NCBI GenBank assembly: GCA_029557535.1
Contig: JAKQII010000283.1
Span: forward strand, 1 to 47,180
Length of the DNA stretch: 47,180 nt
Source of the DNA: Acidobacteriota bacterium
GTDB taxonomy: Bacteria > Acidobacteriota > Blastocatellia > Pyrinomonadales > Pyrinomonadaceae
Direction: 5' to 3'
Below, one piece after another: positions 14,028 through 44,333 of this stretch (positions within the stretch are counted from its first letter, which is position 1; every line of letters starts with the position of its first letter). The position numbers were made by a program, and so were the translations under genes. A model generated the notes under the pieces. That model had not been told where the DNA came from. It worked only from the letters and a program-made list of their open reading frames with translations, and did no database searches.

Positions 14028-14990
14028 ATGAAATTCAAGATTGCAGTCGCTTGGTGCACGCTTTTGGTTTGCTTTCTCAGCGCCGGCGCACAGACGTCAG
14101 GTTCGAATCCTGAGGCAGGCAATTACCAAATCGGACCCGGCGACGTCATCGACATCACGGTCAGCAAGAACCCGGAATTGTCGCGTACCGCGATCCGGGT
14201 AGACAACCGCGGAGCGATCCGGCTGCCGATGCTTGAGGATGACGTGATCGCCGTATGCCAGACGGAAAAGGAACTTGCCGACGCGATTCGAGAGAAATAC
14301 CGGAAGTTCCTTGTTGAGCCGTTCGTTCTGGTCGCGGTGCGCGAGTTCAACTCGAGTACGGTGGCGGTCATCGGTGCGGTAAATTCGCCGGGCAGGTTTC
14401 AGTTCCATCGACAAATACGGCTCGTCGAGTTATTGACATTCGTCAACGGTCCCAGTGCGGCCGCCGGAGAGTCTGCCGAGATCATCCGTGATTCAAGGCG
14501 TCCTCGATGCGAGGGCGGCCGTTTCATTCGGCCTGACGATGGCGTCGAGGACTTGATCAGCGTCGAACTCGCAAGCGCCTTTCGAAACGGCTCCGGCGAC
14601 AATCCGGTGATCCTTGCCGGCGACATTATCCACATTCCCGAAGCGACGGTCCGGAATGCGTATATAGTTGGCAACATCAGGTCAAGCCAGACCATCAACC
14701 TGCGCGAACCGACGACCCTTACCCAGGCCATTGCGATGGCGGGTGGGATCACGTCGGGCGCCCAGCTTGACAAGGTGCTGATCCGGCGCCAGGTGGCAGG
14801 AACGCTGAACCGCCAGGAGATTCTGGTCAACGTGAACGAGATCAACAAGCGGCAGCGTGACGACGTTGCGATTCAGCCGAACGATATTATCGAAATTCCG
14901 GGACCGAAGGGCGTCAAGAAAGTGCTCGATAGCATTTTGAGGACCCTCGTGCCGACTCTGACCCAGTTGCCGGTTCGTGTGATTCCGTAA
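14028..14990 (+). CDS. Polysaccharide export outer-membrane protein (Wza/SLBB family)
   Basis: Outer-membrane polysaccharide export (OPX) protein, which forms or contributes to the channel through which capsule or exopolysaccharide leaves the cell. A signal peptide covers about residues 1-22 (cleavage near Ser-Ala-Gly-Ala-Gln). The Poly_export domain follows at about 30-115 (YQIGPGDVIDITVSKNPELS), then two SLBB-like domains at about 117-195 (VAVIGAVNSPGRFQF) and 205-290 (YIVGNIRSSQTINLREPTT). Length 320 is near normal. No canonical lipobox cysteine sits at the expected cleavage point, so lipidation as in E. coli Wza is doubtful. GGAGG lies about 12 bases before ATG 14028. The next gene, its usual partner, begins 3 bases after the stop. 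Confidence 0.92.
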   Translation: MKFKIAVAWCTLLVCFLSAGAQTSGSNPEAGNYQIGPGDVIDITVSKNPELSRTAIRVDNRGAIRLPMLEDDVIAVCQTEKELADAIREKYRKFLVEPFVLVAVREFNSSTVAVIGAVNSPGRFQFHRQIRLVELLTFVNGPSAAAGESAEIIRDSRRPRCEGGRFIRPDDGVEDLISVELASAFRNGSGDNPVILAGDIIHIPEATVRNAYIVGNIRSSQTINLREPTTLTQAIAMAGGITSGAQLDKVLIRRQVAGTLNRQEILVNVNEINKRQRDDVAIQPNDIIEIPGPKGVKKVLDSILRTLVPTLTQLPVRVIP

Positions 14991-14993
14991 GAC

Positions 14994-17435: not shown

Positions 17436-17470
17436 CCACGGCCACATCCGTCGCTCAACTTCCAATCAAC

Positions 17471-18550
17471 ATGAAATTTCGATCCGAATGCCTGAAACGG
17501 ACGCCTGCCGGCGCGCGTGACGGTAATTGTCTGATCATCGGCGAGGTTGCTCAGTCGCACGACGGGAGCCTCGGCATGGCCCACGCATTTGTCGACGCAA
17601 TAGCCGCCGCCGGTGCCGACGCGATTAAGTTCCAAACCCATATCGCGGCCGAGGAGAGTACGCGACACGAGCCGTGGCGCGTGAAATTCAGCCGCCAGGA
17701 CGAAACCCGTTACGACTATTGGAAGCGAATGGAGTTTACGCCCGAACAGTGGGCCGGACTGAAGCGGCATGCCGACGAAGCGGGCCTTTTGTTCATGAGC
17801 AGCCCGTTTTCGGAACCGGCTGTTGATCTCTTGAGGTCGATCGGCATGCGGGTCTGGAAAGTGGCCTCCGGCGAAGTCGGCAATACGCCGATGCTCCGCC
17901 GGATAACGGAAAGGAACGATCCCGTCATTATCTCATCCGGACTGAGCGACTGGGCCGAATTGGATTCCGCCGTCGAACTGGTCAGTCGGAGAGGGAATCC
18001 GTTGGCGGTAGTCCAGTGCACGTCGGCGTATCCGTGTCCGCCGGATCGAGTCGGTTTGAATCTTCTCGGTGAGATCAACCGGCGTTACGGACTGCCCGCC
18101 GGACTTTCCGACCATTCGGGAAGGATCTTCGCGGGACTTGCGGCGGCCACGCTCGGCGCGGAAGTGATCGAAGTGCATGTCGCACTGAGCAAGGAAATGT
18201 TCGGTCCGGACGTGGCATCGTCGTTGACTTCCGAAGAACTAGGGAAATTGGTTCTCGGTGTGCGTGAAATCGAATCGATCCTCGCGTGCCCGGTCGACAA
18301 GTCGGCCCTGGCCGCTGACGCCTCCGAACTGCGAAAGCTCTTTACGAAGAGCATCGTTGCCGGAACGGACCTCGGCAAGGGCACGATCCTTGAATCGAAA
18401 CATCTGAAGCTGAAGAAACCTGGGACCGGACTGCCGCCGTCGTACTTGGCGGAACTTATCGGTCTGGAACTGGCCCGAGACCTCGTCGCGGACGAGCCGC
18501 TCTCAATGGAAGACATCGTCGACACATCCGGTTCTGCGAGGAAATGGTGA
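17471..18550 (+). CDS. neuB: NeuB-family nonulosonic acid synthase
   Basis: Condenses phosphoenolpyruvate with an N-acetylhexosamine (N-acetylmannosamine or a relative) to give a sialic-acid-type nine-carbon sugar acid. The TIM-barrel part covers about residues 18-260, with IIGEVAQSHDGSLGMA, DAIKFQTH, KVASGEV and QCTSAYPCPP. A C-terminal SAF (antifreeze-like) domain follows at about 290-355 (RKLFTKSIVAGTDLGKGT). ATG 17471 is used; TTG 17432, overlapping the previous stop, would add 13 residues, and neither has a clear ribosome site. The exact substrate (ManNAc, 2,4-diacetamido or pseudaminic precursor) cannot be read from sequence. The adjacent hydrolysing epimerase favours the neuraminate or legionaminate branch. 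Confidence 0.88.
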   Translation: MKFRSECLKRTPAGARDGNCLIIGEVAQSHDGSLGMAHAFVDAIAAAGADAIKFQTHIAAEESTRHEPWRVKFSRQDETRYDYWKRMEFTPEQWAGLKRHADEAGLLFMSSPFSEPAVDLLRSIGMRVWKVASGEVGNTPMLRRITERNDPVIISSGLSDWAELDSAVELVSRRGNPLAVVQCTSAYPCPPDRVGLNLLGEINRRYGLPAGLSDHSGRIFAGLAAATLGAEVIEVHVALSKEMFGPDVASSLTSEELGKLVLGVREIESILACPVDKSALAADASELRKLFTKSIVAGTDLGKGTILESKHLKLKKPGTGLPPSYLAELIGLELARDLVADEPLSMEDIVDTSGSARKW

Positions 18551-18599
18551 GGTGTCCCGCGTCGGGAATTGGCGCGGGATCAATCAACCAACTGTGAAT

Positions 18600-19754
18600 A
18601 TGCGGAGAAAAATCTGCGTCGTTGTGACGGCGCGGCCAAGCTACAGTCGGGTTAAGACGGCACTGAGGGCGATCATGGACAACCCGGATCTCGAACTTCA
18701 GCTAGTCGTCGCGGCCTCGGCACTTCTCGATCGTTACGGTACCGCGGTCAACTACATCGAGCGCGACGGTTTTCCGATCGCCGCCCGCGTCTACATGGTC
18801 CTTGAGGGCGAAAATCCGGCATCGATGGCGAAAACCACCGGTCTTGGGATGCTCGAACTGGCGACCGTGTTCGACAATCTCAAGCCGGATATAGTGGTCA
18901 CTGTCGCCGATCGGTTCGAGACGCTGGCGACCGCGGTCGCTGCGTCGTACATGAACATTCCGGTCGCCCACATTCAAGGTGGCGAGGTTACCGGTTCGAT
19001 CGACGAGAAGGTCCGGCATGCCGTAACGAAGCTTGCCGATATTCACCTCGTGGCCACCGAGGAGGCGGCCAGGAGGGTGACGATGATGGGAGAGGAAGCG
19101 CGAAAGGTCTACGTGACCGGCTGTCCGTCTATCGACCTCGCCGCCGACCTCGGCAACGATCCCTACCTCGACTTCAATCCGTTCGAACGATACGGCGGCG
19201 TCGGCGAACTCCACGCGCTGACGAACGGCTACGTCGTCGTGATGCAGCATCCGGTCACGACGGAACACGAAAAAGCGCGGCAGCACGTTCTTGAAACGCT
19301 GGAAGCGATTCATCGCATCGACATGCCGACGCTCTGGTTCTGGCCCAACGTCGACGCCGGCTCGGACGGCACTTCGAACGGAATTCGGTCGTACCGTGAA
19401 AAGCACAAACCGCGGAACATCCACTTCTTCAAGAATATGGAGCCTTCGGATTTTCTGCGGCTCCTGTACAGTTCCAAGTGTCTGGTCGGGAATTCAAGTG
19501 TGGGCATCCGCGAATGTTCGTTTCTCGGGGTTCCGGTCGTCAACATCGGAACGCGCCAGGCGGGACGCGAACGCGGTGAGAATGTGATCGACGTCGGCTA
19601 TTGGGCGGCGGAGATCGAGGACGCGATCAGGCAGCATCTCGGCAACGGCCGCTATCCGCGCCTTCCGCTCTACGGAAACGGCGACGCCGGCAAACGGATT
19701 TCCGAGGTTCTCGCGACGGCGCCGCTCGAGATCGAAAAACGATTGACGTACTGA
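18600..19754 (+). CDS. neuC: UDP-GlcNAc 2-epimerase (hydrolysing), NeuC/LegG type
   Basis: Converts a UDP-N-acetylhexosamine to free ManNAc (or the GDP-bacillosamine equivalent) for the NeuB reaction. The GT-B-like epimerase fold is evident from VVVTARPSYSRVKTAL, DIVVTVADRFETLATA, HIQGGEVTGSIDEKVRH, VTGCPSIDLA, MQHPVTTEHEKA and GNSSVGIRECSFLGVPVVNI. The last of these is the nucleotide-binding end of the active site. Length is about 384 residues from ATG 18600, matching NeuC. A GTG at 18552 would add 16 residues without family similarity or proper ribosome site. It overlaps the next gene by one base (TGATG). The choice between NeuC and LegG needs a phylogeny. No dehydratase/aminotransferase pair of the legionaminate route lies alongside. 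Confidence 0.85.
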   Translation: MRRKICVVVTARPSYSRVKTALRAIMDNPDLELQLVVAASALLDRYGTAVNYIERDGFPIAARVYMVLEGENPASMAKTTGLGMLELATVFDNLKPDIVVTVADRFETLATAVAASYMNIPVAHIQGGEVTGSIDEKVRHAVTKLADIHLVATEEAARRVTMMGEEARKVYVTGCPSIDLAADLGNDPYLDFNPFERYGGVGELHALTNGYVVVMQHPVTTEHEKARQHVLETLEAIHRIDMPTLWFWPNVDAGSDGTSNGIRSYREKHKPRNIHFFKNMEPSDFLRLLYSSKCLVGNSSVGIRECSFLGVPVVNIGTRQAGRERGENVIDVGYWAAEIEDAIRQHLGNGRYPRLPLYGNGDAGKRISEVLATAPLEIEKRLTY

Positions 19755-20458
19755 TGATGAACGTCCTCGGCATCATTCCCGCCCGCGGCGGATCAAAAGG
19801 CGTTCCCCGAAAGAACATCCGGCCGCTTCTTGGGAAGCCGTTGCTGGCATACACGGTGGAGTGCGCCCTCAAGTCAACGCGACTGTCGTGCGTCGTGCTC
19901 AGCACCGACGATAAAGAGATCGCCGCGATCGGACGCGGACTCGGAGCGGACGTCCCGTTTCTCAGGCCGGCGGAACTTGCCGACGACGCGGCTCCGACGT
20001 ATCCGGTCGTGATGCATGCAGTGCAGTATCTGGAGGAACACGGGCGATCATTCGACGCCGTTTGTCTGCTTCAGCCGACAAATCCTCTGCGGCAACCGGC
20101 GGACATCGATGCCTGCATCGAACTGTTGGAAAACACGGGGGCGGATTCCGTCATCAGCGTTCTCCCGGTTCCACATCAGTACAACCCGCGGTGGGTCTAT
20201 CTCAGGAACGGCGAGGGCGACCTGGTGCTGAGCACCGGGGAAAGCGCGCCGATCGCGAGACGGCAGGACCTCCCCGCAGCATTTCACCGGGACGGCTCGG
20301 TGTACGTCACGCGGACGGAAGCACTTCGACGCGACGGCAATCTCTACGGAACGCATGTCCGCGGGTATCTCATCGATCGTGAACGGTCGGTCAATATCGA
20401 TACCCCGGAAGACTGGGACATGGCGGAGCGGGCGATGAGCAGCGCAATCGGTAAATGA
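19754..20458 (+). CDS. neuA: CMP-nonulosonic acid cytidylyltransferase
   Basis: Activates the nonulosonic acid with CTP to the CMP-sugar donor used by glycosyltransferases. About 234 residues. The nucleotide-binding signature IPARGGSKGVPRKN is at residues 8-21, followed by LGKPLLAYTVECAL, STDDKEIA, LLQPTNPLR and, near the end, VNIDTPEDWDMAE. These are normal for the family. ATG 19754 overlaps the preceding stop and ATG 19757 is the next codon, so either may be used. A longer open frame reaching upstream to 19601 overlaps the epimerase and is not real. The stop overlaps the start of the FkbH-PCP-TE gene, placing sugar activation and acyl loading in one coupled transcript. Confidence 0.9.
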   Translation: MMNVLGIIPARGGSKGVPRKNIRPLLGKPLLAYTVECALKSTRLSCVVLSTDDKEIAAIGRGLGADVPFLRPAELADDAAPTYPVVMHAVQYLEEHGRSFDAVCLLQPTNPLRQPADIDACIELLENTGADSVISVLPVPHQYNPRWVYLRNGEGDLVLSTGESAPIARRQDLPAAFHRDGSVYVTRTEALRRDGNLYGTHVRGYLIDRERSVNIDTPEDWDMAERAMSSAIGK

Positions 20459-23433
20459 ACGAACTGAGGGCCAGACAAGGTCGGCGCGTGGTCGTGGCCG
20501 CCAACTTCACGGCCGAATCGATCGTGTCGGCGATGGAGGCGCTGTCTCGACGGTGGTCGTTGGGATTTGAGGTCAATTCGGCGCCGTACAATCAGCTTTT
20601 CCGGCAACTGATGGACCCGAAAAGTGCGATCGCGGTGAATGATTCGGCCGCGAACGTCTTCTTTGTGCGGATCGAGGACCTCGTCGAGTCGCGGTCGATG
20701 ATGCCGCTGGAGTTGCTGAAGCAATTAAGTAAACTGGCGCAGAACGCGGACGATCTGGTTGGTGCCTTCGGAAATGCCTCGGCGTTTCAGGTTGGGAACT
20801 TCGTGTTTGTCTGCCCGTTGTCAGCCGGGAGTGCTACGGTGCCCGAACTTCGGGTTGGGCTTACCGCCGTTCGGGATGAATTCATAGAGAGACTGACAGG
20901 CCAGCCGAATCTTTTCGTCTTCGATTGCGACGGGACCGCATCGCGCTTCGGCCTTGAAGTCGTCGACGACGACGCCCGCAATCGACTGGGGCATGTTCCG
21001 TTTAGCGAAGAGTACAACACGGCGCTGGCGGTCGATGCGCTTCGCCGCGTCGATTCGTTAGTTCGCAAGCCGTTCAAGGTTCTGGTCCTCGATTGCGACA
21101 ACACTCTCTGGGACGGGATCGTCGGCGAGCAGGGCGTCGGCGGAATTTCTTTGTCCGAAGGCCGGCGATTTCTTCAGTCGTTTGCCGTCGACCTGTCTGC
21201 ACGCGGCGTCGTTGTCTGCCTGAACAGCCGGAACAACAAAGAGGACGTTTGGGAGGTTTTCGATCAGCGGAAAGACATGATCCTGCGGCGCGAGAATATC
21301 GTTGCATCGAGGATCAACTGGCTGCCGAAGTCCGAGAATTTGCGATCGCTCGCGGCCGAACTTGAACTCGGACTCGATTCATTTGTATTCGTCGACGATG
21401 ATCCGGCCGTTTGCGCCGAGGTCCGAAGCAATTGTCCCGAGGTCCTCACAGTTCATCTGCCCGAGTCGAGCATTGATCTGCCGCGTCTGTTTGAACATCT
21501 CTGGGTTTTTGACAGGTTGAAAGTGACCGACGAAGACCGCAACCGGACGCGCTCGTATCAGGATCAGGCGAAACGGCGCGAATTGAAGCGAAGTTCGACG
21601 GGCGTGGCCGACTACCTTCGAAGTCTGGATCTCCGCTGTGAGATCGAGGAAATCCGCGTCGAGGATATTCCGCGGGTTTCGCAGTTGACGTTGAGGACGA
21701 ATCAGTTCAACGCGACAACGCGCCGGATGAGCGAAAGCGATGTCCGCGAACGGATGTCAAGCAAGATTCTCGGACTTCTGACAGTGCGCGTCAGCGATCG
21801 GTTCGGCGATTACGGTCTTGTCGGGGTCGCCGGCTACCGGACGGAAAAGCACGATTTGACGACGGACATGTTTCTCCTCAGTTGCCGGGTTCTGGGACGC
21901 GGCGTCGAACATCAGGTCGTGCGTGCGCTCGGGGCCCGGGCGATGGCCGCAGGATTGGACACGGTTTCGATCGAATTCTGCCCCACTGCGAAGAACACGC
22001 CGGTTTTGAACTTCCTTCAACAGATAGGTGAACCGTCCGATCACAGATCGGAGGGCAGTTCGGGATTTCATCTTCCGACGGAAATCGCGTGCGGGCTCCA
22101 ACCGACCGACGACGCTCCGCCGGTCGCAGGCGATTCCGCCGGCGATGCCCTCAATTCCGCGGTACGGGACGACGGATTCAGGCAACCGGAATACGTTGAA
22201 CTAGCCGGCGAATTTTCTTCGGGCCTGGATTTATCGGCGTTGTTCGTGAGCGATATTGATCCTGTCATAACGCCGGAACTCGATTCGGCGGAGGAACTTA
22301 CAAAGACCGAATCGCAACTGAAGGAGATCTTTGAGAGGGCTCTGAGGAAACGCGGGATTAGGCGATCGGACAGTTTCTTCGATATTGGCGGTACGTCGTT
22401 TCTTGCCGTAACGGTATTTGTCGAGATCGAACGGACATTTGGAGTGTCGCTGCCGCTCTCGGTTCTGATCGACTCCTCGAGCATCGAGAAACTCGCTTGC
22501 CTGATCGACGGCCCGGCCCCGAATTACGATTACAAGTACCTCGTACCGCTTCGTGCCGACGGAAGCAAGCCACCTCTGTTTTGTTTTCATGCCGCGGGCG
22601 GGAATGTGCTGAACTACATCGAGCTCGCGAACGAACTCGGCGACGACCAACCGGTTTACGGTCTCCAAATGCGGGGGGTTACCGACAAATCGGAGACCGC
22701 CCACGACGATGTCGGCGAGATGGCGAGGGAGTACCTCCGCGAGATACGTTCGCTTCAGCCTAACGGACCGTACCGGCTATGCGGGGCGTCATTTGGCGGT
22801 CTTGTCGCCTACGAAGCAGCGCGGCATCTACGAAAGGCCGGCGAGACCGTCTCGATGCTGGCGCTGATCGATACGTACGCGCCGGGATACGGCACCGAAA
22901 GATCTGACCCGGCTGTTTTTCAACGCCTGAAGCGACTGTTGGGCAAATTGAAGTTCAACATTTTCTACGTTCGCGAACTCCCGACCAACCGGAAACGGAT
23001 CGCGTATGTCGCCGGCCGGATGAAGGGCCAGGTGACGAAGGCCCGGCGGCGTCTGATCTGGCGCGCGAACAAGATCGCGATCGACTACAACAAGGCGACC
23101 GGGAAGGAGCTACCGAACGATATGCTGCGGAACGTCAAGGCGATCAAGCACGCTGAACGAAACTACCGGCCATCGCCGTTCGACGGCCGGATTATCCTTT
23201 TCCGTGCGCTTTTCCGACCCGAGAACATCGAATTTGACCATTACCTTGGGTGGCGCGAGCACACTGAATCTGAATTTGTCATCGAGGACGTCCGTGGCAA
23301 CCACAATACCGCGATCGCGTATCCTTTTGTCGCTGAATTCGCTTCGAAGTTCAAAGTTCATCTCGACGCTCCGGCGGACGGCAGCGAGGCGAATTCCGGC
23401 GCCGGTCCGGCGTCGATGGCGGCCGCGGTTTGA
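20455..23433 (+). CDS. FkbH-like glyceryl loader fused to carrier protein and thioesterase
   Basis: Three-part protein of 992 residues. Residues 1 to about 560 are FkbH-like: an N-terminal region, a HAD-IIIC phosphatase core with LDCDNTLW (Asp213, Asp215), CLNSRNNKED and FVFVDDDPAVC, then a GNAT-like segment (VRVSDRFGDYGLVGVAGY). FkbH proteins take the glyceryl group of 1,3-bisphosphoglycerate, dephosphorylate it and load it onto a carrier protein. A peptidyl/acyl carrier domain is at about 610-680 with the phosphopantetheine site GGTSF (Ser648). A type I thioesterase follows from about 695 to the end (FCFHAAGGN, nucleophile Ser779 in GASFGG, a late GNH as likely catalytic His). No ketosynthase, condensation or adenylation domain is present. 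ATG 20455 overlaps the neuA stop. Family assignments are firm; the product is inferred. Confidence 0.9.
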   Translation: MNELRARQGRRVVVAANFTAESIVSAMEALSRRWSLGFEVNSAPYNQLFRQLMDPKSAIAVNDSAANVFFVRIEDLVESRSMMPLELLKQLSKLAQNADDLVGAFGNASAFQVGNFVFVCPLSAGSATVPELRVGLTAVRDEFIERLTGQPNLFVFDCDGTASRFGLEVVDDDARNRLGHVPFSEEYNTALAVDALRRVDSLVRKPFKVLVLDCDNTLWDGIVGEQGVGGISLSEGRRFLQSFAVDLSARGVVVCLNSRNNKEDVWEVFDQRKDMILRRENIVASRINWLPKSENLRSLAAELELGLDSFVFVDDDPAVCAEVRSNCPEVLTVHLPESSIDLPRLFEHLWVFDRLKVTDEDRNRTRSYQDQAKRRELKRSSTGVADYLRSLDLRCEIEEIRVEDIPRVSQLTLRTNQFNATTRRMSESDVRERMSSKILGLLTVRVSDRFGDYGLVGVAGYRTEKHDLTTDMFLLSCRVLGRGVEHQVVRALGARAMAAGLDTVSIEFCPTAKNTPVLNFLQQIGEPSDHRSEGSSGFHLPTEIACGLQPTDDAPPVAGDSAGDALNSAVRDDGFRQPEYVELAGEFSSGLDLSALFVSDIDPVITPELDSAEELTKTESQLKEIFERALRKRGIRRSDSFFDIGGTSFLAVTVFVEIERTFGVSLPLSVLIDSSSIEKLACLIDGPAPNYDYKYLVPLRADGSKPPLFCFHAAGGNVLNYIELANELGDDQPVYGLQMRGVTDKSETAHDDVGEMAREYLREIRSLQPNGPYRLCGASFGGLVAYEAARHLRKAGETVSMLALIDTYAPGYGTERSDPAVFQRLKRLLGKLKFNIFYVRELPTNRKRIAYVAGRMKGQVTKARRRLIWRANKIAIDYNKATGKELPNDMLRNVKAIKHAERNYRPSPFDGRIILFRALFRPENIEFDHYLGWREHTESEFVIEDVRGNHNTAIAYPFVAEFASKFKVHLDAPADGSEANSGAGPASMAAAV

Positions 23434-23456: not shown

Positions 23457-26252
23457 ATGTTGCATCCGATCAACAGCAGCACGATCCAAGTGGCGTCCCA
23501 GGGTCAGAAGTCCGCGGCGGCCGAACGTCCGGTCGCGTCATTCGCCGAGATCTTTCGCGCGACCGCGCGCCGTTGTCCGGACTCGGTCGCGGTCATGGCG
23601 GGCGGAATTGCGACCACGTATGCTGAGCTGGATCGTCTGTCGGGAGCCGTCTGCAGCGGTTTGCGGCGATCAGGAGTCGGTCTGAATGACATCGTTGCGG
23701 TTTACGCGCACCGGTCATGCGAAATGTTCGCGCTGATCCTCGGAGTGCTCAAGGCCGGCGCTGCGTTTCTGCCTCTGGCCACGGATTATCCGCTCGAACG
23801 GATCGAATTCATGTTGGCGGATTCGAAGGTCAGGATAATGCTGACCCAGGACTCGCTCCTCGGCGGCTTCACGAATTTCGACGGCGCGATAGAAACTTAC
23901 GAAGATCTGACCAAGAACGCCTGTCGGGACGAGACCGACGAACCGGCATCGCCGCCGTCACCCGACGACCTGGCGTATGTCATTTACACGTCGGGATCGA
24001 CGGGAAAACCGAAGGGAGTCATGATCACGAATGGCAATCTGATCAATTACGCCGAGACCCTGCCGGTCGCGCTCGGCTTGGGGTCGTCGGACCGCTACCT
24101 CCATACGGCATCGATCTCATTCTCGTCATCGGTCCGCCAGATGATGCTGCCGTTCGCAAAGGGATCGACCGTCGTCATCGCCACAACCGAGACGATCGGG
24201 GATCCGCCCCGTCTTCTGGAGCTGATCGAGTCGGAGGGCGTCACGGTTATCGATTTCGTGCCGTCGTATTGGCGGGCCGTACTCGCGTCCGTTGACCTAA
24301 TGTCCGACACCGACCGCGCAGGCGTGCGTGACAATGCGCTCCGATTGCTGCTCTCGGCGAGTGAGCCGCTGCCGGTGTCGGTCGCCCGCGCGATCGTCCG
24401 GACATTCTCGGAAAACGCTCGGCTGATCAATATGTACGGCCAAACCGAAACGACGGGCATTGTCACGACCGGCGTGGTCAACGCAGCGGAGCTCGGCGAA
24501 ACGGGCCTGACGCCGATCGGGCGGCCGATTCCCGGCGCCGCCGCGCATGTACTTGACGGGAAAATGCAACCTGTTCCGGAGGGCGAGTTCGGCGAGCTCT
24601 GGATCGGCGGACCCGGAGTCGGACGAGGCTATCTCAATCAGGAGAAGATGTCGTCCGAACTTTTCGTCCCTGATCAGTTCGGAAAGGAAGGCGGTGGAAA
24701 GCTTTACCGCACCGGCGATCGCGCGCGGATCCGGCCCGACGGAACGATCGAATTTGCCGGCCGCTCGGACAATCAGGTCAAGATCAGGGGCTTCCGGGTC
24801 GAGCTCGGCGAGATCGAGTCAACAATCATGACTTTTCCGGGAGTCGCCGAAGCCGCGGTAGTTTCCCGCGAACAAAAGGACAGAGAATTGGGCATCATGG
24901 CCTACGTGCGGGGCGCCGATGGACGGGGCATCGACGTCGCGGCTCTCAGAAAGTTCATGCGCGATAAGCTTCCGGAGTATATGATCCCGGCGGATTTTGT
25001 CGCGCTCGAACAGTTTCCGCGGACCCCGAACGGCAAGCTCGACAGAAAGGCGTTCCCGGATCCTCCGACGATCGGTTCCGGTGACCGCTCGAAGACAACT
25101 GCCGGCACGGCGACCGAATCCGAGTTGCTTGCGATCTGGACGCGGGTCCTGGGCAAGACCAGTATCGCGATCCATGACAGCTTTTTTGACGTCGGCGGAA
25201 ACTCGCTACTCGCGATCTCGATGTGCGCCGAGGTCGAAAAGGCATTTCGAAAGAGCATCCCGATCGCGACGCTTTTCGGCGCGGCGACGATTCACGAATT
25301 GGCGAAGGTGATCGACGAACGGGATTGGTCCCCGCCCGAATCCTCGATCGTTCCGATTCGGCCTGATGGCACGCACACGCCGCTCTTTTGCGTGCATGCC
25401 GGCGGCGGAAACGTTTTGTTTTACAGCGATCTTGCGCGTCATCTCGCCGAATCGATCCCGATTTTTGGGATTCGCGTGATGCGTCTCGGCGGACGCCAGG
25501 TCGGTCACGCGACGATCGAAGAGATGGCCGAACATTATGTTTCGGAGATGCGCGGGGTACAGCCGCACGGTCCGTACCTGATATGCGGCCATTCGCTCGG
25601 CGGGACGATCGCGCTTGAAATGTCGCGACAACTCGCGGCGATTGGCGAGACGGTCAAAATTCTGGCGATGGTCGACACCTGGGGCCCGGGATACCCTCAG
25701 GCCTTGCCGAACATGACGGCGGGCCGGATGAAGTTCTACGAGATCGGCCACCGTTTCGCGAAACACTGGGACCGCTTTGCGGGGCTCGGTGCGCGCGGAA
25801 AGGCCTCGTATCTGTTCGGGATCGGCGGAAAGGTCGTCTCTCGCGCACGCCGTCGTCTGTTCTACAAACGCCAGGCGGCAGTTCGTCGGTTTTATCGGCT
25901 TTTCGAAAAGCCGATTCCCAAGGAATACATACAGATCGAGGATCAGATACACAAGGCCGCCTGCAAGTACGTTCCCGGAGAGTACGCGGGTCGGGTCGAG
26001 TTCTTCAGGGCGGAGTTTCAGCCAAAGGGCATCGTCCGCGACGATTTTCTGGGCTGGCAGGATTTGCTGACAGGCAGCATGGAGTTTCACGACGTTCCCG
26101 GAGACCACATCACGCTGATCAAGGAACCGAACGTCGAATTGATCGGGCGGGAACTCGGCAAGTTGATCCTGAATGAGGCGCAGGCGACCGGGACCGTATC
26201 GGGCCACACGGAACTTGTAGCCAAACATGGCGCCGTCGGACGAACTGAATGA
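23457..26252 (+). CDS. NRPS-like adenylation-PCP-thioesterase protein
   Basis: About 931 residues: adenylation domain (about 25-540), carrier domain (about 550-615, Ser583 in VGGNSLL) and thioesterase (about 635-915, Ser713 in GHSLGG, late GDH). Adenylation motifs present are YTSGSTGKPKGVMI, MYGQTETTG, YRTGDRARIRPDG, the hinge GRSDNQVKIRGFRVELG, and Lys527 in PNGKLDRKAFP. There is no condensation domain. By hand alignment to GrsA the specificity residues (235, 236, 239, 278, 299, 301, 322, 330, 331) are S, S, R, D, L, A, M, G, I. The Asp that normally binds the alpha-amino group is missing, so the substrate may not be an ordinary alpha-amino acid. ATG 23457 is preferred over TTG 23430, which overlaps the previous stop. 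The stop overlaps the phosphopantetheinyl transferase start. Confidence 0.9.
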   Translation: MLHPINSSTIQVASQGQKSAAAERPVASFAEIFRATARRCPDSVAVMAGGIATTYAELDRLSGAVCSGLRRSGVGLNDIVAVYAHRSCEMFALILGVLKAGAAFLPLATDYPLERIEFMLADSKVRIMLTQDSLLGGFTNFDGAIETYEDLTKNACRDETDEPASPPSPDDLAYVIYTSGSTGKPKGVMITNGNLINYAETLPVALGLGSSDRYLHTASISFSSSVRQMMLPFAKGSTVVIATTETIGDPPRLLELIESEGVTVIDFVPSYWRAVLASVDLMSDTDRAGVRDNALRLLLSASEPLPVSVARAIVRTFSENARLINMYGQTETTGIVTTGVVNAAELGETGLTPIGRPIPGAAAHVLDGKMQPVPEGEFGELWIGGPGVGRGYLNQEKMSSELFVPDQFGKEGGGKLYRTGDRARIRPDGTIEFAGRSDNQVKIRGFRVELGEIESTIMTFPGVAEAAVVSREQKDRELGIMAYVRGADGRGIDVAALRKFMRDKLPEYMIPADFVALEQFPRTPNGKLDRKAFPDPPTIGSGDRSKTTAGTATESELLAIWTRVLGKTSIAIHDSFFDVGGNSLLAISMCAEVEKAFRKSIPIATLFGAATIHELAKVIDERDWSPPESSIVPIRPDGTHTPLFCVHAGGGNVLFYSDLARHLAESIPIFGIRVMRLGGRQVGHATIEEMAEHYVSEMRGVQPHGPYLICGHSLGGTIALEMSRQLAAIGETVKILAMVDTWGPGYPQALPNMTAGRMKFYEIGHRFAKHWDRFAGLGARGKASYLFGIGGKVVSRARRRLFYKRQAAVRRFYRLFEKPIPKEYIQIEDQIHKAACKYVPGEYAGRVEFFRAEFQPKGIVRDDFLGWQDLLTGSMEFHDVPGDHITLIKEPNVELIGRELGKLILNEAQATGTVSGHTELVAKHGAVGRTE

Positions 26253-27010
26253 GCGTGCTGAACGAAATCGTAACTCGGATCTGGCCCGCCAACTTGAGTC
26301 GCGGGAAGACGGACCTGCGATCGATTGAAGAAAATTCGGAATCGGTCGATGTTTGGTCGTTTTTTGCGGAATCGAGTCCGGAACGGATCGCCGGGTTCTT
26401 GCCCGACCTTGCCGAGGACGAGAGGGAACGGTCCGCGCGCTTCGTTTTCGACGAGGACCGCAATCGATTCATCTACTGTCGCTGGGCATTGCGATCGATC
26501 CTCTCCAAGTATATGGGCGCGGTGCCGGGAAAACTCAGGTTCAGCGTCAACGAGTTCGGGAAGCCGTTCCTCAACGGGAACGCAAACGGCCTGGAGTTCA
26601 GCCTATCGCATTCGCGCGATGCCGCGCTCATCGCGGTGACTCGCGGACGGAGGGTCGGCGTCGACATTGAATACGTCGATCCGAAAACGGATGTCACGGC
26701 CCTCGCCGGCTCGGTTTTTTCAAAATCCGAGCTTGATGGAATTGGTCGACCGGCCTTGGAGTCAAATTTGGGATCTTTTTTTTCGGCTTGGACAAGGAAA
26801 GAGTCCTTGCTCAAGGCCATTGGAATGGGCTTCTCCGCGCCGGCCGGAGTGCTGCGTGAATTGAACGAACTCCCAAAAGAAGGCACCGTTTTTTTCGATA
26901 TGGCTTTAGATGGCCGGCGGTGTGAATGGGTGACGGCGTCGTTAATTGCTCCGGAAGGGTTCGTTGCGGCACTGAGCTTCGAGAACAACTTCAATGGCTT
27001 CGGTTACTAA
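26249..27010 (+). CDS. Sfp-type 4'-phosphopantetheinyl transferase
   Basis: Attaches the phosphopantetheine arm from coenzyme A to the conserved serine of carrier domains, here most likely Ser648 and Ser583 of the two preceding proteins. Both Sfp signatures are present: VGVDIE with Asp139 and WTRKESLLKAIG with Trp181, Lys184 and Glu185. SLSHSRD-type and ARFVFDEDRNRF-type motifs lie upstream. Length 253 is slightly above the 220-240 typical for the family because of a short N-terminal extension. The ATG overlaps the preceding stop (ATGA). A dedicated transferase directly in the operon shows that the carrier domains are meant to be active. An 88-base gap follows, ending this coupled block. Confidence 0.94.
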   Translation: MSVLNEIVTRIWPANLSRGKTDLRSIEENSESVDVWSFFAESSPERIAGFLPDLAEDERERSARFVFDEDRNRFIYCRWALRSILSKYMGAVPGKLRFSVNEFGKPFLNGNANGLEFSLSHSRDAALIAVTRGRRVGVDIEYVDPKTDVTALAGSVFSKSELDGIGRPALESNLGSFFSAWTRKESLLKAIGMGFSAPAGVLRELNELPKEGTVFFDMALDGRRCEWVTASLIAPEGFVAALSFENNFNGFGY

Positions 27011-27098: not shown

Positions 27099-27827
27099 AT
27101 GAAATACTACGAAATCGCCCGACGCAGTTTGGAGCCGGTACTGCCACCACTTTATGCAAGAGTACGTAGGGACGTTCTGTCAGAACTCCGCGACCTGTCC
27201 GGACCCACCTTGATCCTCGACGTTGGAGGACGTAAATCACCGTACACGATTGGCGTCCCGGCAAGGGTTCACATACTCGATCTTCCCAGGGAAAGCGAAA
27301 TTCAAAACGAACTCAACCTTGGGCTGAACGATCAGGTTGTCGGTCAAATCCAGCGTCGGCGCAGCAACATTGAAAAGGTGATACTGGGCAACATGACCCG
27401 ATCAGGATTACCGTCGAATGCATACGATATCGTTGTCTCCGTCGAGGTCCTCGAGCATGTTGAACGCGACGAGCTGTTTATTGACGAAGTCTGCCGCGTG
27501 CTGAAACCCGGCGGCGTATTCATAATGACAACGCCCAACGGCGACTTTATCGAGAACCGCAATCCTGATCACAAGCGTCACTACAAACTTCGGGAATTGG
27601 CGATCCTCTTGGACAAGTTCTTCGAACGCTCGGAACTCGAATACGCAATCGCTGGCGGCTACTTTCGGAAGGCCGGACTTCGTCCGTGGGCCGTGCGGAG
27701 GCCGATTCAAACCCTTGCCAGTATCTTTGGAAACGTCGTCAACTCGATCCAGTCGGCGAGTACTGACGTGGCGACGAAAGCCATCGGGACACACCACTTG
27801 ATAGCAAAGGCGTACAAGCGGGTTTGA
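27099..27827 (+). CDS. Class I SAM-dependent methyltransferase
   Basis: Protein of 242 residues with a Rossmann methyltransferase core. Motif I is LILDVGGRKSPY (about 41-52), then YDIVVSVEVLEHVERDEL (motif II region) and VCRVLKPGGVFIMTTPNG (motif III region). It probably methylates a sugar, a sugar carboxylate or the chain terminus during polysaccharide synthesis; the substrate cannot be told. A terminal methyl cap is a known length signal in ABC-exported O-antigens, and the exporter genes lie downstream. The 88-base gap in front is the largest in this part of the locus, so an internal promoter is possible. Confidence 0.85.
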   Translation: MKYYEIARRSLEPVLPPLYARVRRDVLSELRDLSGPTLILDVGGRKSPYTIGVPARVHILDLPRESEIQNELNLGLNDQVVGQIQRRRSNIEKVILGNMTRSGLPSNAYDIVVSVEVLEHVERDELFIDEVCRVLKPGGVFIMTTPNGDFIENRNPDHKRHYKLRELAILLDKFFERSELEYAIAGGYFRKAGLRPWAVRRPIQTLASIFGNVVNSIQSASTDVATKAIGTHHLIAKAYKRV

Positions 27828-27875: not shown

Positions 27876-29672
27876 ATGTGTGGAATTGCCGGAACAATAG
27901 GTGGCCGATCGCGGTCGGACGACGTCGGGCGGATGATCGAAATCCTCGGTCATCGCGGTCCCGACGGTGACGGGATCTACACGGATCCTGACGGCAAAGC
28001 CGTGCTCGGACACCGCCGTCTGAGCATCATCGATACCAGCGACGCGGGCCGGCAGCCAATGGCGAGCGCCGACGGTCGGTACGTGATCACGTACAACGGC
28101 GAGGTTTACAACTATCTGGAACTGCGCCGCGAACTTGAAAGCTCTTACCGCTTCACGACCCGGACCGATACCGAGGTCGTGCTGGCGGCGTATGAACGCT
28201 GGGGAGAAGACTGTCTCGACCGATTCGTCGGGATGTTCTCGTTCGTCATCTGGGACGAGATCGAGAAGGTCGCCTTCGCGGCCCGCGACCGGTTCGGAGT
28301 GAAGCCGTTTTATTATTCCGTGCGCGGTGACGGGACGTTTGTGTTCGCCAGCGAGATCAAGGCGATCCACGCCGCCGGAGTACCGAAACTCATCAATGAT
28401 GCGATTTGGGCGACGTTCTTGACTTACGGCGTTCTTGACCACAGCGATAAATGCTTTTGGCAAGATATTGCATCACTGCCCGGCGGCCATTGCTTGCTTT
28501 GGAAGAACGGCACATTGACGGTTCGGAAATGGTACGAAATTTTCGAAAAGACAGGGATCGACTTCGACACTCGCCCCGATCGTGAAGTTTCCGAAGAATA
28601 CTTGGCGTTGATGCGCAACAGCGTCGGTATTCGCTTTCGGTCCGATGTTCCGGTTGGAATCAATCTCAGCGGCGGCGTCGATTCCTCTGCCTTGCTTGCA
28701 ATCGTTGATCAGATTCATTCCAATGACCAGAATGTTAACGCCTTCACTTTTGTGACTGGGGCTAAAGACTACGACGAATTGCCGTGGGTTGAGGCAATGC
28801 TCAAGGAAACTGGACACCCCTTGATCGTGAGCACATTAAGCTCTGTTGAAGTGCCCAGTCTCGCAGAGCAAGTTCAGTTTCATCAGGATGAACCGTTCGG
28901 GGGGCTGCCGACGCTGGCATACGCAAAACTATTCTCAACCGCCCGGAACTACGGTTCGATCGTACTCTTGGATGGCAATGGAATGGATGAGCAATGGGGC
29001 GGTTACGATTATTACTTTTCGAATCCGAATTGCAACGAGCCGGGCTTGGTCCAAGGAACAACGGAATCGCCGACTCGACCGAACTGCCTCATTCCGGAAT
29101 TTCGCAAATTGGCGACGGCGGTTGAGTTTCCCAGCGTTTACCCCGAGAAATTACGAAACCTTCAGATTCGGGACGCATTCCAGACAAAGATCCCAAGGGC
29201 GCTTCGGTATAACGATCGAATCTCTATGATGTCGTCAGTCGAGTTGCGTGAGCCGTTCATTGATCACCGTCTCTTTGAGTTGGCATTGCGTCAGGCTCCC
29301 AATCGAAAAACAAACGGAAAGCAGGGAAAGGTGATGTTACGCAAGCTAGTGCAAGAACTTGTACCACGAACGATATCGACCGCTCCAAAACGTGCGCTTC
29401 AAACTCCGCAGCGCGAATGGCTGCGCGGCGAGCTCAGGGATTGGGCCCATTCGATGGTGTTGGGCGCGATCGCATCGTTTGGCGGCTCATGGCTTTCAGT
29501 TCCGATGGTGAAATCTGCGTGGGAAGATTTCGTCATGGGCCGAGGCGACAACAGTTTCTTTGTCTGGCAGTGGATCAGTTTGGGCCTGTTGACGACGTCG
29601 GTCTCGAACCTCGGTCACAGAAACGAAACTCATCAGAACGCCACGCAACGCGAATCGTCGGCGATTCAATGA
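27876..29672 (+). CDS. Asparagine-synthase-like glutamine amidotransferase
   Basis: Two-domain enzyme of 598 residues. The class II glutaminase domain begins with the catalytic Cys2 (MCGIAG) and includes HRGPDGDG and TYNGEVYNY. The synthetase domain has the pyrophosphate loop NLSGGVDSSALLA. It should use glutamine, ATP and a carboxylate to make an amide. Within polysaccharide loci such proteins often amidate uronic or nonulosonic acids rather than aspartate; that is the likely role here but is inferred. Base composition changes inside the gene: about 28380-29400 is visibly AT-richer than both ends, suggesting recombination. The gene is 48 bases after the methyltransferase and 7 bases before the ABC permease. 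A second family member lies at 42454-44331. Confidence 0.9.
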   Translation: MCGIAGTIGGRSRSDDVGRMIEILGHRGPDGDGIYTDPDGKAVLGHRRLSIIDTSDAGRQPMASADGRYVITYNGEVYNYLELRRELESSYRFTTRTDTEVVLAAYERWGEDCLDRFVGMFSFVIWDEIEKVAFAARDRFGVKPFYYSVRGDGTFVFASEIKAIHAAGVPKLINDAIWATFLTYGVLDHSDKCFWQDIASLPGGHCLLWKNGTLTVRKWYEIFEKTGIDFDTRPDREVSEEYLALMRNSVGIRFRSDVPVGINLSGGVDSSALLAIVDQIHSNDQNVNAFTFVTGAKDYDELPWVEAMLKETGHPLIVSTLSSVEVPSLAEQVQFHQDEPFGGLPTLAYAKLFSTARNYGSIVLLDGNGMDEQWGGYDYYFSNPNCNEPGLVQGTTESPTRPNCLIPEFRKLATAVEFPSVYPEKLRNLQIRDAFQTKIPRALRYNDRISMMSSVELREPFIDHRLFELALRQAPNRKTNGKQGKVMLRKLVQELVPRTISTAPKRALQTPQREWLRGELRDWAHSMVLGAIASFGGSWLSVPMVKSAWEDFVMGRGDNSFFVWQWISLGLLTTSVSNLGHRNETHQNATQRESSAIQ

Positions 29673-29679
29673 TTAATCG

Positions 29680-30612
29680 ATGAATATGTTTGGAAGTAGC
29701 TCAGAATCAGTAACCGATCGACTTTCGGCCGAAACCGGCGATGGGTCGGGTCCGCCCTGCACGAACGGCGCCGACGGGGATTGGACACTCGTCATCCGGC
29801 CGCGGAACGGCTTGTTCGATTTACACCTGACCGATCTTTGGAGATACCGCGATCTGGTGTCGTTGTTTGTCAGGAGGGATTTCGTGTCCCTTTACAAGCA
29901 GACCGTTCTCGGACCGCTCTGGTTCATAATTCAGCCGCTACTCACGACGATTACGTTTACGGTCATTTTCGGCAATGTCGCGCAGCTTTCGACCGACGGC
30001 CTCCCGAAGATTCTCTTTTACCTTTCAGGAATCACGGCTTGGAATTACTTTTCGGACTGTCTGCTCAAAACGTCCGAGACGTTTTCTGGAAATGCCCATC
30101 TTTTTGGAAAGGTCTACTTTCCGCGACTCGCGGTTCCGGTTTCGGTGGTCTTATCCAACCTCATCAAATTCGGAATTCAACTACTGCTGTTCCTTTGTTT
30201 CTACTTGTATTTTCTTTTCGCAGGCGCCCCGATCCACCCGACACCTGCGATTCTTTTGGTTGTGCCGTTGGTTATTCTTATGGCTGCACTGGGGTTGGGA
30301 AGCGGCATAATAGTCTCATCGCTCACGACGCGGTACCGTGATCTGCGGTTCTTGGTTCAGTTCGGAACTCAACTGCTCATGTATTCGACGCCCGTGATCA
30401 TCCCACTTTCCAAACTGCCCGAACAATACCGATGGATCATGCTCATGAACCCCATGACGCCGGTCATCGAGACCTTCAGGTACGCGTTTCTGGGGACCGG
30501 GACATTCAGTTGGGAACACCTTCTCATCTCCACCGCGGCAACGCTCCTGATTCTTGTGGCGGGTGTTCTGCTGTTCAATCACGTCGAGAAGACGTTCATG
30601 GACACGGTCTGA
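29680..30612 (+). CDS. O-antigen/capsule ABC transporter permease (Wzm-like)
   Basis: ABC-2 type permease of 310 residues that moves undecaprenyl-linked polysaccharide across the inner membrane together with the next gene product. A hydrophilic N-terminus of about 60 residues ends in LWRYRDLVSLFVRRDFVSLY, the usual amphipathic helix before the first membrane span. About six hydrophobic segments follow (starting with LGPLWFIIQPLLTTITFTVI), and the family pattern LMNPMTPVIETFRYAFLG is near 265-285. The start is ATG 29680. The gene is followed after 21 bases by the ATPase gene. Confidence 0.92.
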   Translation: MNMFGSSSESVTDRLSAETGDGSGPPCTNGADGDWTLVIRPRNGLFDLHLTDLWRYRDLVSLFVRRDFVSLYKQTVLGPLWFIIQPLLTTITFTVIFGNVAQLSTDGLPKILFYLSGITAWNYFSDCLLKTSETFSGNAHLFGKVYFPRLAVPVSVVLSNLIKFGIQLLLFLCFYLYFLFAGAPIHPTPAILLVVPLVILMAALGLGSGIIVSSLTTRYRDLRFLVQFGTQLLMYSTPVIIPLSKLPEQYRWIMLMNPMTPVIETFRYAFLGTGTFSWEHLLISTAATLLILVAGVLLFNHVEKTFMDTV

Positions 30613-30633
30613 AAGTTCATCTACGAACCGAGT

Positions 30634-31941
30634 ATGTCAAATTCCGTAATTCAAATCGATGATATTTCAAAGCGCTATCGTCTCGGCGTTATTGGCGGTC
30701 GTAGGCTCGTCGATGACGTCAATCGCGCGTGGGCCAAATTGCGGGGAAGGCCCGACCCGCTTTCAAAGGTTGGATCCGGCGAAAACATGGCTGCCGGGGT
30801 TCCGGGTGATGAACTTTGGGCGTTGAGAAACGTTTCTCTGAAGATCGAGCAGGGCGAGGCGCTTGGCATTATCGGCAGAAATGGGGCCGGAAAGAGCACC
30901 CTTTTAAAAATACTTTCGCGGATCACTGCACCGACGAGTGGAGAAATTCGCCTTAAAGGGCGAATTGCAAGTCTCTTGGAAGTCGGCACTGGCTTCCACC
31001 CCGAACTTACAGGAAGGGAGAACGTGTTCCTTAACGGAGCGATTCTCGGGATGACAAAGGATGAAATTCGCAAGAGGTTCGATGAAATTGTGACTTTTTC
31101 CGATGTCGAGCGATTTATCGACACTCCGGTAAAACGCTATAGCAGCGGGATGAAGGTGAGACTCGCGTTCGCGGTCGCCGCGCATCTCGAGGCCGAAATA
31201 CTGATTGTCGACGAGGTCCTCGCCGTCGGTGACGCGGAATTTCAAAAGAAATGTCTCGGCAAAATGGGTGACGTGACCTCTCAGGGCCGGACAGTTCTTT
31301 TCGTCAGCCACAATATGGCGGCCGTTCAGGCATTGTGCCAGACAGCCGTTTTCTTGGAAGGCGGTCGGTTGACAGAGACGGGTGAACCGTCGGCGATAGT
31401 TTCCAAATATCTTTCCAGTTCGGTGACCCGAGAGCAGTTTCGGGAGTGGGAAGAGCCCGAGGCGGCGCCGGGGAATGATGTGTTGAGGGTCAGTCGTTTG
31501 TCCGTTTCCTCCGAAGACGACCCGGAAAGCAGATTGATCACCATGCGTTCTTCGGTCAACGTGGAAACTGGTTTCTGGTCCCTGAGCGGGGGCAGGATGT
31601 GTCATTTGACGTTTCATTTGCTCAACGAGCAGGGAATAATCGTCCTGACAACCGCGTCGACGCCGCGGAAATATGCTCCGGGAGAGTACGTCGCGAAGTT
31701 TCGAATCCCGGGCGGCCTTTTGAATTCCGGTGTTTACAGCTTGAAGCTTCTGATCGTCGAAAATGGCCGTCCCACGTTCAAGGGCCCGGGCATCGCCTCG
31801 TTCAGCGTCGTCGATATTTCGCCAAATTCTAATAGCGGACTGCGGCGTGAGCCGGGCGTGATTCAACCCGAACTCGTTTGGGAAGTGAGACAAGCGGGCG
31901 ATGGCAGAACAGCTTCAAAACGTGTTGAAGCCCAGATATGA
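30634..31941 (+). CDS. O-antigen/capsule ABC transporter ATPase with C-terminal domain (Wzt-like)
   Basis: ATPase partner of the preceding permease. The nucleotide-binding domain has Walker A GRNGAGKST (Lys87), signature RYSSGMKVRLAFAVA, Walker B ILIVDEVLAVGD, and a His switch in FVSHNMAAVQ. Beyond residue about 255 there is an additional beta-rich domain (LTFHLLNEQGIIVLTTAS and so on) of the Wzt C-terminal type. In O8/O9a-like systems this domain recognises a chemical cap on the non-reducing end of the chain. Length 435 fits such extended Wzt proteins. The presence of this domain suggests that the exported glycan is terminally modified. The stop overlaps the first beta-propeller gene (ATGA). 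Confidence 0.93.
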   Translation: MSNSVIQIDDISKRYRLGVIGGRRLVDDVNRAWAKLRGRPDPLSKVGSGENMAAGVPGDELWALRNVSLKIEQGEALGIIGRNGAGKSTLLKILSRITAPTSGEIRLKGRIASLLEVGTGFHPELTGRENVFLNGAILGMTKDEIRKRFDEIVTFSDVERFIDTPVKRYSSGMKVRLAFAVAAHLEAEILIVDEVLAVGDAEFQKKCLGKMGDVTSQGRTVLFVSHNMAAVQALCQTAVFLEGGRLTETGEPSAIVSKYLSSSVTREQFREWEEPEAAPGNDVLRVSRLSVSSEDDPESRLITMRSSVNVETGFWSLSGGRMCHLTFHLLNEQGIIVLTTASTPRKYAPGEYVAKFRIPGGLLNSGVYSLKLLIVENGRPTFKGPGIASFSVVDISPNSNSGLRREPGVIQPELVWEVRQAGDGRTASKRVEAQI

Positions 31942-37740: not shown

Positions 37741-38631
37741 ATGAAGAATGCAACGAAACCAAACATCAAAGATGAGCATATGTTGGGTAAAGTCGCTCCA
37801 ACTGCCAAATCAGAGGTCGCATGCGGCGTTGATAGGGGTGAAGTGGTGAGTAATCACGAAGCCACCCCCCACAACATGTCGTTGGAGACGTTTTTGGAGG
37901 AGGTGCAACGCTTCGGCGGCAACCGCCTGACCGAAAGTCTACATACGTCGCCGATTCTGCCACTAATTTACGATGCCGTTGTTGCCGCACGTTCTCGTGA
38001 AGGGGTTCGGGTCTTGAATGTTTTTGCTTCGAACGACAAATCCGGATTCCGCGAGTCGGTATACATGCCATTCTTCAACAATGTTGACTATGTGACCGTT
38101 GATTTTTGGAACGACCGTTTCATATTCGATGGGCAAGAACTTGCGGATACATATTCGCTGCCGCTGGATACCGGGACATTTGACATTGTCATAACCACAA
38201 AAATTATTCTCGAACATGTTTCGGAGCCGTTGGCGACCATCTCTGAATTCTCGCGAATCCTGAAACCGGGTGGCGAACTTTTCTTGATAGTTCCGTTCGC
38301 GATGTCAATTCATCAACCGCCGCATGACTATTTTCGGTTTACCGAACACGGAATAAGGTACTTGTTGAACAAAGCGGGGCTTGAGGTTGTGTATCTTCGA
38401 CCTACTCACAGTGCGTTCATCACTGCGATCGATGCCCTGACGCATTCTAATTTCTTTGAAGTTCTGCCCAAGTCGCTTTCGGGGTATTCGAAGAAGTATT
38501 GGAAGAGATGGATGATTCCATTGGCGATGCGTCTTGATCGCAAGATCGCTGATACCGGCAAATTGTGCCGGCATTATGTTTGTCGCGCGAAAAAGCCGGT
38601 TGATGGCGATTTCGACGCGAGTGACTTGTGA
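37741..38631 (+). CDS. SAM-dependent methyltransferase-like protein
   Basis: About 296 residues from ATG 37741; a non-ATG start at 37702 would add 13 residues. The second half of a class I methyltransferase core is clear: FDIVITTKIILEHVSEPLAT, FSRILKPGGELFLIVPFAMS, and HDYFRFTEHGIRYLLNKAGL, the normal YRYT/FRFT region. The glycine-rich motif I is atypical (VRVLNVFASNDKSG), with the usual acidic and Gly residues poorly kept, so S-adenosylmethionine binding may be altered. It probably modifies a sugar or lipid-linked intermediate. GC is about 45-50 %, below the locus average. Confidence 0.75.
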   Translation: MKNATKPNIKDEHMLGKVAPTAKSEVACGVDRGEVVSNHEATPHNMSLETFLEEVQRFGGNRLTESLHTSPILPLIYDAVVAARSREGVRVLNVFASNDKSGFRESVYMPFFNNVDYVTVDFWNDRFIFDGQELADTYSLPLDTGTFDIVITTKIILEHVSEPLATISEFSRILKPGGELFLIVPFAMSIHQPPHDYFRFTEHGIRYLLNKAGLEVVYLRPTHSAFITAIDALTHSNFFEVLPKSLSGYSKKYWKRWMIPLAMRLDRKIADTGKLCRHYVCRAKKPVDGDFDASDL

Positions 38632-38641
38632 GGCGTTAACC

Positions 38642-44331: not shown

Positions 44332-44333
44332 TT

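Follow-up and report, generated by a model that had tools for sequence, protein, structure and literature searches.

An adenylation domain without the amino-group-binding aspartate in a nonulosonic acid operon: a conserved pocket class with a plausible non-amino-acid substrate

Introduction

What does an adenylation (A) domain of a nonribosomal peptide synthetase (NRPS) activate when it lacks the aspartate that binds the substrate's amino group, and what is such a domain doing in a polysaccharide operon? Both questions arise from an A-PCP-thioesterase (A-PCP-TE) gene in the 47,180-nucleotide stretch of Acidobacteriota DNA analyzed here, which we call the window. An earlier note, made from the sequence alone, had described the missing residue, given a hand-aligned specificity code and argued that the substrate is probably not a standard alpha-amino acid. 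Here we place the domain in its family, in its operon and among related clusters, and ask which acid it might load and onto what.

Results

The A-PCP-TE open reading frame begins with TTG at 23430, with an ATG alternative at 23457 from which residues are counted, as in the earlier note (Table 1). Its A domain is an NRPS adenylation domain, with a TIGR01733 score of 397.8 bits (curated cut-off, 317.4), core motifs A3 to A10 and the A10 lysine; on sequence inspection, these core motifs, the lysine and the PCP and TE serines are all intact. An AlphaFold2 model of the domain, built from an 18-sequence alignment, has a mean pLDDT of 88.6 and a pTM of 0.88, and its Foldseek matches are NRPS A domains, 1AMU among them.

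Table 1. Features of the A-PCP-TE gene and the surrounding cluster (positions in the window)
Feature	Position	Strand	Evidence
Polysaccharide export protein and Wzc-type co-polymerase/kinase	14028..17435	+	Profile matches
NeuB-family nonulosonic acid synthase	17432..18550	+	PF03102, 217.4 bits
NeuC-type UDP-GlcNAc 2-epimerase	18552..19754	+	TIGR03568, 385.7 bits (cut-off 235.9)
CMP-nonulosonate cytidylyltransferase, PseF-like	19754..20458	+	TIGR03584, 190.6 bits (below cut-off, 205.7)
FkbH-PCP-thioesterase, presumed glyceryl loading	20455..23433	+	TIGR01686, 310.5 bits (cut-off 146.65)
A-PCP-thioesterase protein, 940 aa	23430..26252	+	Pfam AMP-binding, AMP-binding_C, PP-binding, Thioesterase; TIGR01733
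A domain, FSSS/SSRD family	23541..25061	+	
FSSSVRQ motif: Ser223 (codon 24123), Ser224 (24126) and Arg227 (24135) = D235, A236 and W239 of GrsA	24120..24140	+	
Asp266 (codon 24252) = T278 position of GrsA, family-invariant	24252..24254	+	
GQTE, A5 motif with Gln replacing Pro	24438..24449	+	
Lys527 (codon 25035) = K517 of GrsA, A10 lysine	25035..25037	+	
PCP phosphopantetheine serine in GGNSL	25203..25205	+	
Type I thioesterase domain; Ser (25593) of GHSLGG and His (26106) present	25365..26210	+	
4'-Phosphopantetheinyl transferase (PPTase), HetI-like	26249..27010	+	Profile matches
SAM methyltransferase MT1, conserved in cluster	27099..27827	+	
AsnB-type amidotransferase, borders variable slot	27876..29672	+	
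ABC-2 polysaccharide exporter permease and ATPase	29680..31941	+	

Residues 231 to 241 of 1AMU (SISFDASVWEM) align without a gap to SISFSSSVRQM in the window, which places Ser223, Ser224 and Arg227 at the positions of Asp235, Ala236 and Trp239. This alignment bore out the claim that FSSS stands where FDxS is expected and that Asp235 is gone. The proposed ten-residue code (S, S, R, D, L, A, M, G, I plus Lys527, with Leu299, Ala301, Met326, Gly334 and Ile335 as the remaining residues) is correct at every residue counted from the ATG at 23457, as is the equation of Arg227 with Trp239 and of Asp266 with Thr278 of GrsA. The sequence alignment offers no alternative acidic residue at position 235, and the AlphaFold2 fold matches 1AMU. 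A feature that the earlier note had passed over is the replacement of Pro by Gln in the A5 motif, GPTE becoming GQTE. The window domain therefore departs from the canonical alpha-amino-acid type in having both Ser at 235 and Gln in place of the A5 Pro.

We then examined how far this pocket extends beyond the window. The best five matches in 97 related genomes, aside from the window itself, all read FSS[SA]xRQ, and a pocket-region scan of the GTDB species set yielded 63 loci, from which, together with the window, 149 A or A-like domains were extracted. The code [S/T/A][S/G/L]RD was found in 61 of the 149, from approximately 60 genomes of several phyla, and took the exact form SSRD(L/V)AMGI in 54 of these 61. 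Hosts of the 63 loci include cyanobacteria, Acidobacteriota, Gemmatimonadota, Planctomycetota, Mesorhizobium, Microvirga, mycobacteria, Streptomyces, Micromonospora and Fulvivirga, among others. The A5 Gln is present in every family member (61/61) and in none of the 88 other domains of the same loci, 62 of which have Asp at the 235 position; that 61 domains share the code while most of their neighbors keep Asp takes the SSRD code beyond chance. Judged by these sequences, loss of Asp235 is a conserved trait of an uncharacterised pocket class, rather than a local oddity. A text search of the open-licence literature did not find code strings such as SSRDLAMGI, so no characterised family member can be named.

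The 61 domains formed an exact split both in a full-domain tree (40 of 60 FastTree bootstraps) and in a tree of the pocket region (30 of 40). In a tree of the domain without its pocket the split was lost, the best approximation being off by 41 taxa (0 of 30 bootstraps). In the interim tree of an incomplete IQ-TREE run, ten FAAL-like domains fell within the 61-domain group, so full-length monophyly counts as moderate evidence only. A pocket that forms one clade within domains that otherwise do not is most simply read as having moved as a unit, and it seems to have been exchanged between synthetases in this way. The window domain belongs to this family by its code, SSRD(L/V)AMGI, its GQTE motif and the position of its pocket in the one clade.

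Arg227 and Asp266 co-occur invariantly in the family. It is possible that Asp266 binds a displaced amino group, as the earlier note had suggested; by analogy, it may instead position Arg227 for a polar or acidic side chain. Glu and Gln codes contain a Lys/Gln239-Asp278 pair, and the Arg239/Asp278 pair resembles it, so a second polar group on the substrate is possible.

Several other arrangements were observed among the loci. An FkbM methyltransferase lies inside the FSSS A domain of L016/L020 (one gene) and L017/L027 (one gene), with TauD directly upstream; in L020, a PPTase and a Wzy_C polymerase are encoded nearby. An FSSS-like A domain sits in a gene annotated only as an FkbM methyltransferase in L100 (Streptomyces sp. 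NBC_01724 plasmid, 288352-312708), in a cluster with a carbamoyltransferase, a P450, a Zn hydrolase and TauD. A second type of A domain without Asp235, read as MGRH(I/V)GGTV, occurs near the FSSS module in cyanobacteria (L028:1231-4119 and L032:18328-20439); in L028 it occurs together with PCP-TE.

To narrow the substrate, we compared the window domain with known domain types. At position 235, alpha-hydroxy-acid A domains carry a small aliphatic residue, the keto-acid domain StsA carries Ile (with Met for the A5 Pro), and McyG, which activates L-Phe, carries Val; the beta-amino domains VinN, IdnL1, CmiS6 and HitB retain the Asp and combine it with a loop shortened by one residue and with bulky residues at 236/301; and aryl-acid domains of the DhbE type have an A5 motif of the QQVxFMAEGL type (PMC11253843). 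The window domain has a loop of normal length (14 residues, as in 57 of the 60 other family members), Ser/Ala at 236/301 and the A5 motif NMYGQTETT, and thus resembles neither the VinN nor the DhbE type. Set against keto- and hydroxy-acid domains, its Ser at 235 is small but polar, and its A5 Pro is lost to Gln, not Met. With beta-amino and aryl features absent, the candidates left are alpha-hydroxy acids, alpha-keto acids and, as McyG uses L-Phe without Asp235, unusually bound alpha-amino acids. The earlier proposal that the substrate is not a standard alpha-amino acid is plausible in light of the family-wide loss of Asp235, of which it is the most economical reading, but the beta-amino and aryl options offered with it are disfavored; in particular, the published beta-amino domains VinN, IdnL1, CmiS6 and HitB retain Asp235 (PMC11253843).

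Neighboring and fused enzymes bear on the same point. The window protein contains no alpha-keto reductase, and ten relatives carry a C-terminal Ldh_2 (lactate/malate dehydrogenase) domain on the same module (L025, L038, L041, L043, L054-L056, L061, L063 and L069, assigned by Pfam for L054 and by BLAST for the other nine). Ldh_2 is possibly an unusual alpha-keto reductase acting on the carrier-bound acid. An FMN-dependent hydroxyacid dehydrogenase adjoins L074. Fifteen members have a TauD hydroxylase as neighbor, lying immediately upstream in 13 loci and otherwise adjacent in the remaining 2. The TauD neighbors and the FkbM insertions (L020/L027) would also suit an amino acid such as Asp. A PDB search with a TauD neighbor returned only an Arabidopsis clavaminate-synthase-like protein and an undescribed TauD-like entry, with no substrate hint. 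One candidate, the 2-methoxypropionyl group of the M. gastri lipooligosaccharide, was dropped: the member there belongs to a PKS-NRPS cluster that includes a Rieske-like protein, and the idea found no support in the M. kansasii paper.

In the window, the genes for the CMP transferase, FkbH-PCP-TE, A-PCP-TE and PPTase overlap by 4 bases at each junction. This run directly follows NeuB-NeuC and is surrounded by polysaccharide export, Wzc, ABC-2 exporter and glycosyltransferase genes. The upstream neighbor has the HAD motif DCDNT, a PCP serine (GGTS) and a TE serine, and so combines an FkbH domain with a carrier, as FkbH-type glyceryl loading requires. Farther along, a second asparagine-synthase-like amidotransferase lies at 42454-44331, and three genes (38600-40075, 40909-42453 and 44328-45839) match BFO_1060/surface carbohydrate glycosyltransferase models, two of the matches scoring well under the cut-off.

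Orthologues of FkbH-PCP-TE lie in syntenic clusters of G001 (same genus) and G139 (same family), which are without A-PCP-TE and PPTase. The gene order there is Poly_export-Wzc-NeuB-NeuC-CMP transferase-MT-FkbH-PCP-TE-AsnB, and neither the SSRD pocket nor a window-type PPTase was found elsewhere in these two genomes. In seven more genomes, NeuB and carrier-TE matches are 5-7 kb apart. Between the CMP transferase and AsnB, the slot holds FkbH-PCP-TE alone in L095 and L096, formyltransferase-A-PCP-TE in L102, L105 and L107 (full Pfam annotation) and L103, L104 and L108 (alike by BLAST), and A-PCP-C-A-PCP-TE in L106. No carrier-TE protein is encoded there in L110, L113, L120 and L121, and in L111 and L115-L118 the slot has no genes or small genes only; most of the small genes found where the slot is otherwise empty encode methyltransferases, a glycosyltransferase, a deacetylase or a dehydrogenase. 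The AsnB gene beside the slot is conserved in the related clusters. Ten clusters thus use different carrier-thioesterases at one position, and we infer that this is an exchangeable acyl-loading slot decorating the nonulosonic acid, for example with glyceroyl. The slot proteins of L102-L108, with codes that we take to be those for Ala (such as DLFNNALTY) and Gln-like (such as DAWQLGLID), are predicted formyl-aminoacyl donors. Going by these predictions, none of the acyl groups delivered from the slot would carry a free amine (they would be formylated, hydroxy or acyl-capped), and a non-amino acid as the substrate of the SSRD domain would fit this pattern.

Standalone A-PCP-TE proteins with this pocket are likewise encoded within other polysaccharide loci (L026, L030, L034, L052, L059 and L068); L074 and L076 are not clearly in such loci. 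Neighbors of the standalone members include glycosyltransferases, Wzx, Wzy and sugar transferases, in cyanobacteria, one planctomycete and one chloroflexus.

Discussion

We see an even chance that A-PCP-TE is an acyl-loading and transfer unit for the nonulosonate, that FkbH-PCP-TE plays the same part with glyceroyl, and that the slot they occupy is exchangeable. What we observe are the sequence traits, the conservation of the family, the intact motifs, the gene overlaps and the variation of the slot; from these we infer a substrate class, an acceptor and a transfer role for the thioesterases, as follows. The PPTase would prime both carriers. The A domain would adenylate a small polar carboxylic acid whose alpha position carries no recognised amino group, with an alpha-hydroxy or alpha-keto acid as the likeliest candidate (Arg227/Asp266 perhaps holding a second polar group), and load it onto the fused PCP, while FkbH would load glyceroyl from 1,3-bisphosphoglycerate onto the PCP of the neighboring protein. 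Each TE would then pass its own acyl group to the product of NeuB, NeuC and the CMP transferase, the acceptor being most simply an amino group of the nonulosonic acid or of its CMP or polymer form.

For the substrate, we favor an alpha-hydroxy or alpha-keto acid with some confidence. It could instead be an alpha-amino acid, either ordinary or beta-modified (for instance Asp, Glu or something related), its amine held by backbone carbonyls and Ser223/Asp266 and its aminoacyl group going onto the polysaccharide. McyG is a precedent for this, the Arg/Asp pair resembles Glu/Gln codes, and TauD hydroxylases stand beside 15 members, some of them in FAAL-led cyanobacterial clusters resembling beta-hydroxyaspartate siderophore systems. 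However, Asp235 and the A5 Pro are invariantly lost together in SSRD domains, ten loci have the fused lactate/malate-type dehydrogenase, and the slot neighbors would deliver hydroxyacyl or N-formylated acyl groups; an amino acid is therefore possible but doubtful. A substrate of some other kind altogether is unlikely. A beta-amino or aryl acid in particular is improbable: aryl-acid domains without Asp235 do exist, but their A5 motif differs from that of the window domain, and beta-amino domains keep the Asp in a differently shaped pocket. That the domain is degenerate and inactive is hardly credible, as its unusual code is the only sign of decay, while the catalytic motifs are intact from the A domain to the TE and the code is conserved across phyla.

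A different objection concerns the transfer step. Type I thioesterases usually hydrolyze or cyclize, releasing products, and the relatives in L020 and L022 are short assembly lines, so that A-PCP-TE and FkbH-PCP-TE might make a small free metabolite, their location in a polysaccharide cluster being incidental. We consider this rather unlikely: the 4-base overlaps tie the carrier-TE genes to the CMP-nonulosonate gene, one slot receives different carrier-TE proteins in ten clusters, and standalone A-PCP-TE relatives recur in other polysaccharide loci.

The proposed acylation of the nonulosonic acid leads to a broader and more tentative proposal, namely that NRPS- and FkbH-type carrier modules such as FkbH-PCP-TE, SSRD-coded A-PCP-TE and formyltransferase-A-PCP-TE are exchangeable N-acylation enzymes of bacterial sialic-acid-like sugars and that SSRD domains form a separate, widespread class with one non-amino-acid substrate. 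If true, the variety of acyl groups on nonulosonic acids (glyceroyl, formyl-aminoacyl and hydroxyacyl) would be written by assembly-line enzymes. The SSRD domains define a class of A domains that share a single conserved, non-canonical pocket across several phyla. The locus supplies concrete candidates for the genes behind N-glyceroyl and other N-acyl decorations of nonulosonic acids, and the same cluster with a different or empty slot offers a simple comparison for acyl decoration.

Comparison with known systems

In StsA, EnSyn A1 and engineered TycA, Asp235 is replaced as in the window domain, and StsA has also lost the Pro of A5 GPTE, to Met there and to Gln here (PMC11253843). Keto- and hydroxy-acid domains have Ala, Gly or Ile at 235 where the window domain has Ser, and the Arg239/Asp278 pair is a feature of the window; unlike alpha-keto/alpha-hydroxy-acid NRPS systems, the window protein has no internal ketoreductase. 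Some FSSS domains sit in FAAL/TauD/NRPS layouts similar to those of cyanochelin-type TauD-NRPS clusters (PMC12628792), but the beta-OH-Asp A codes of those clusters are not known to be SSRD, and no A-domain code matching SSRD was found in the open-licence cyanochelin literature.

DltA/DltC and AlmE/AlmF likewise use an A-domain enzyme and a carrier to charge an acyl group for a surface glycopolymer, but they keep the Asp, use D-Ala or Gly and have a separate carrier and a membrane or other acyltransferase. The window protein joins A, PCP and TE in one chain and has a different pocket, and acylation of the polymer or its sugar precursor is predicted from gene context. With known FkbH glyceryl loading of carriers, the upstream neighbor shares the FkbH domain and the PCP; it differs in its TE fusion and its setting in a nonulosonate polysaccharide operon.

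The proposed product class is the same as that of Pse5Am7Gra, made by Tannerella forsythia, and of di-O-methylglyceroyl-Pse in Campylobacter (PMC3068675). In Tannerella, an AsnB-type protein was proposed for the Am (acetamidino) group, and the gene responsible for Gra was described as elusive in papers of 2018-2019 (PMC6120980, PMC6388019). An AsnB-type protein thus figures both in the Tannerella proposal and here. Whereas no Gra gene was identified in Tannerella, the window has FkbH-PCP-TE and AsnB together, and a carrier-thioesterase route to the glyceroyl group can be proposed for it.
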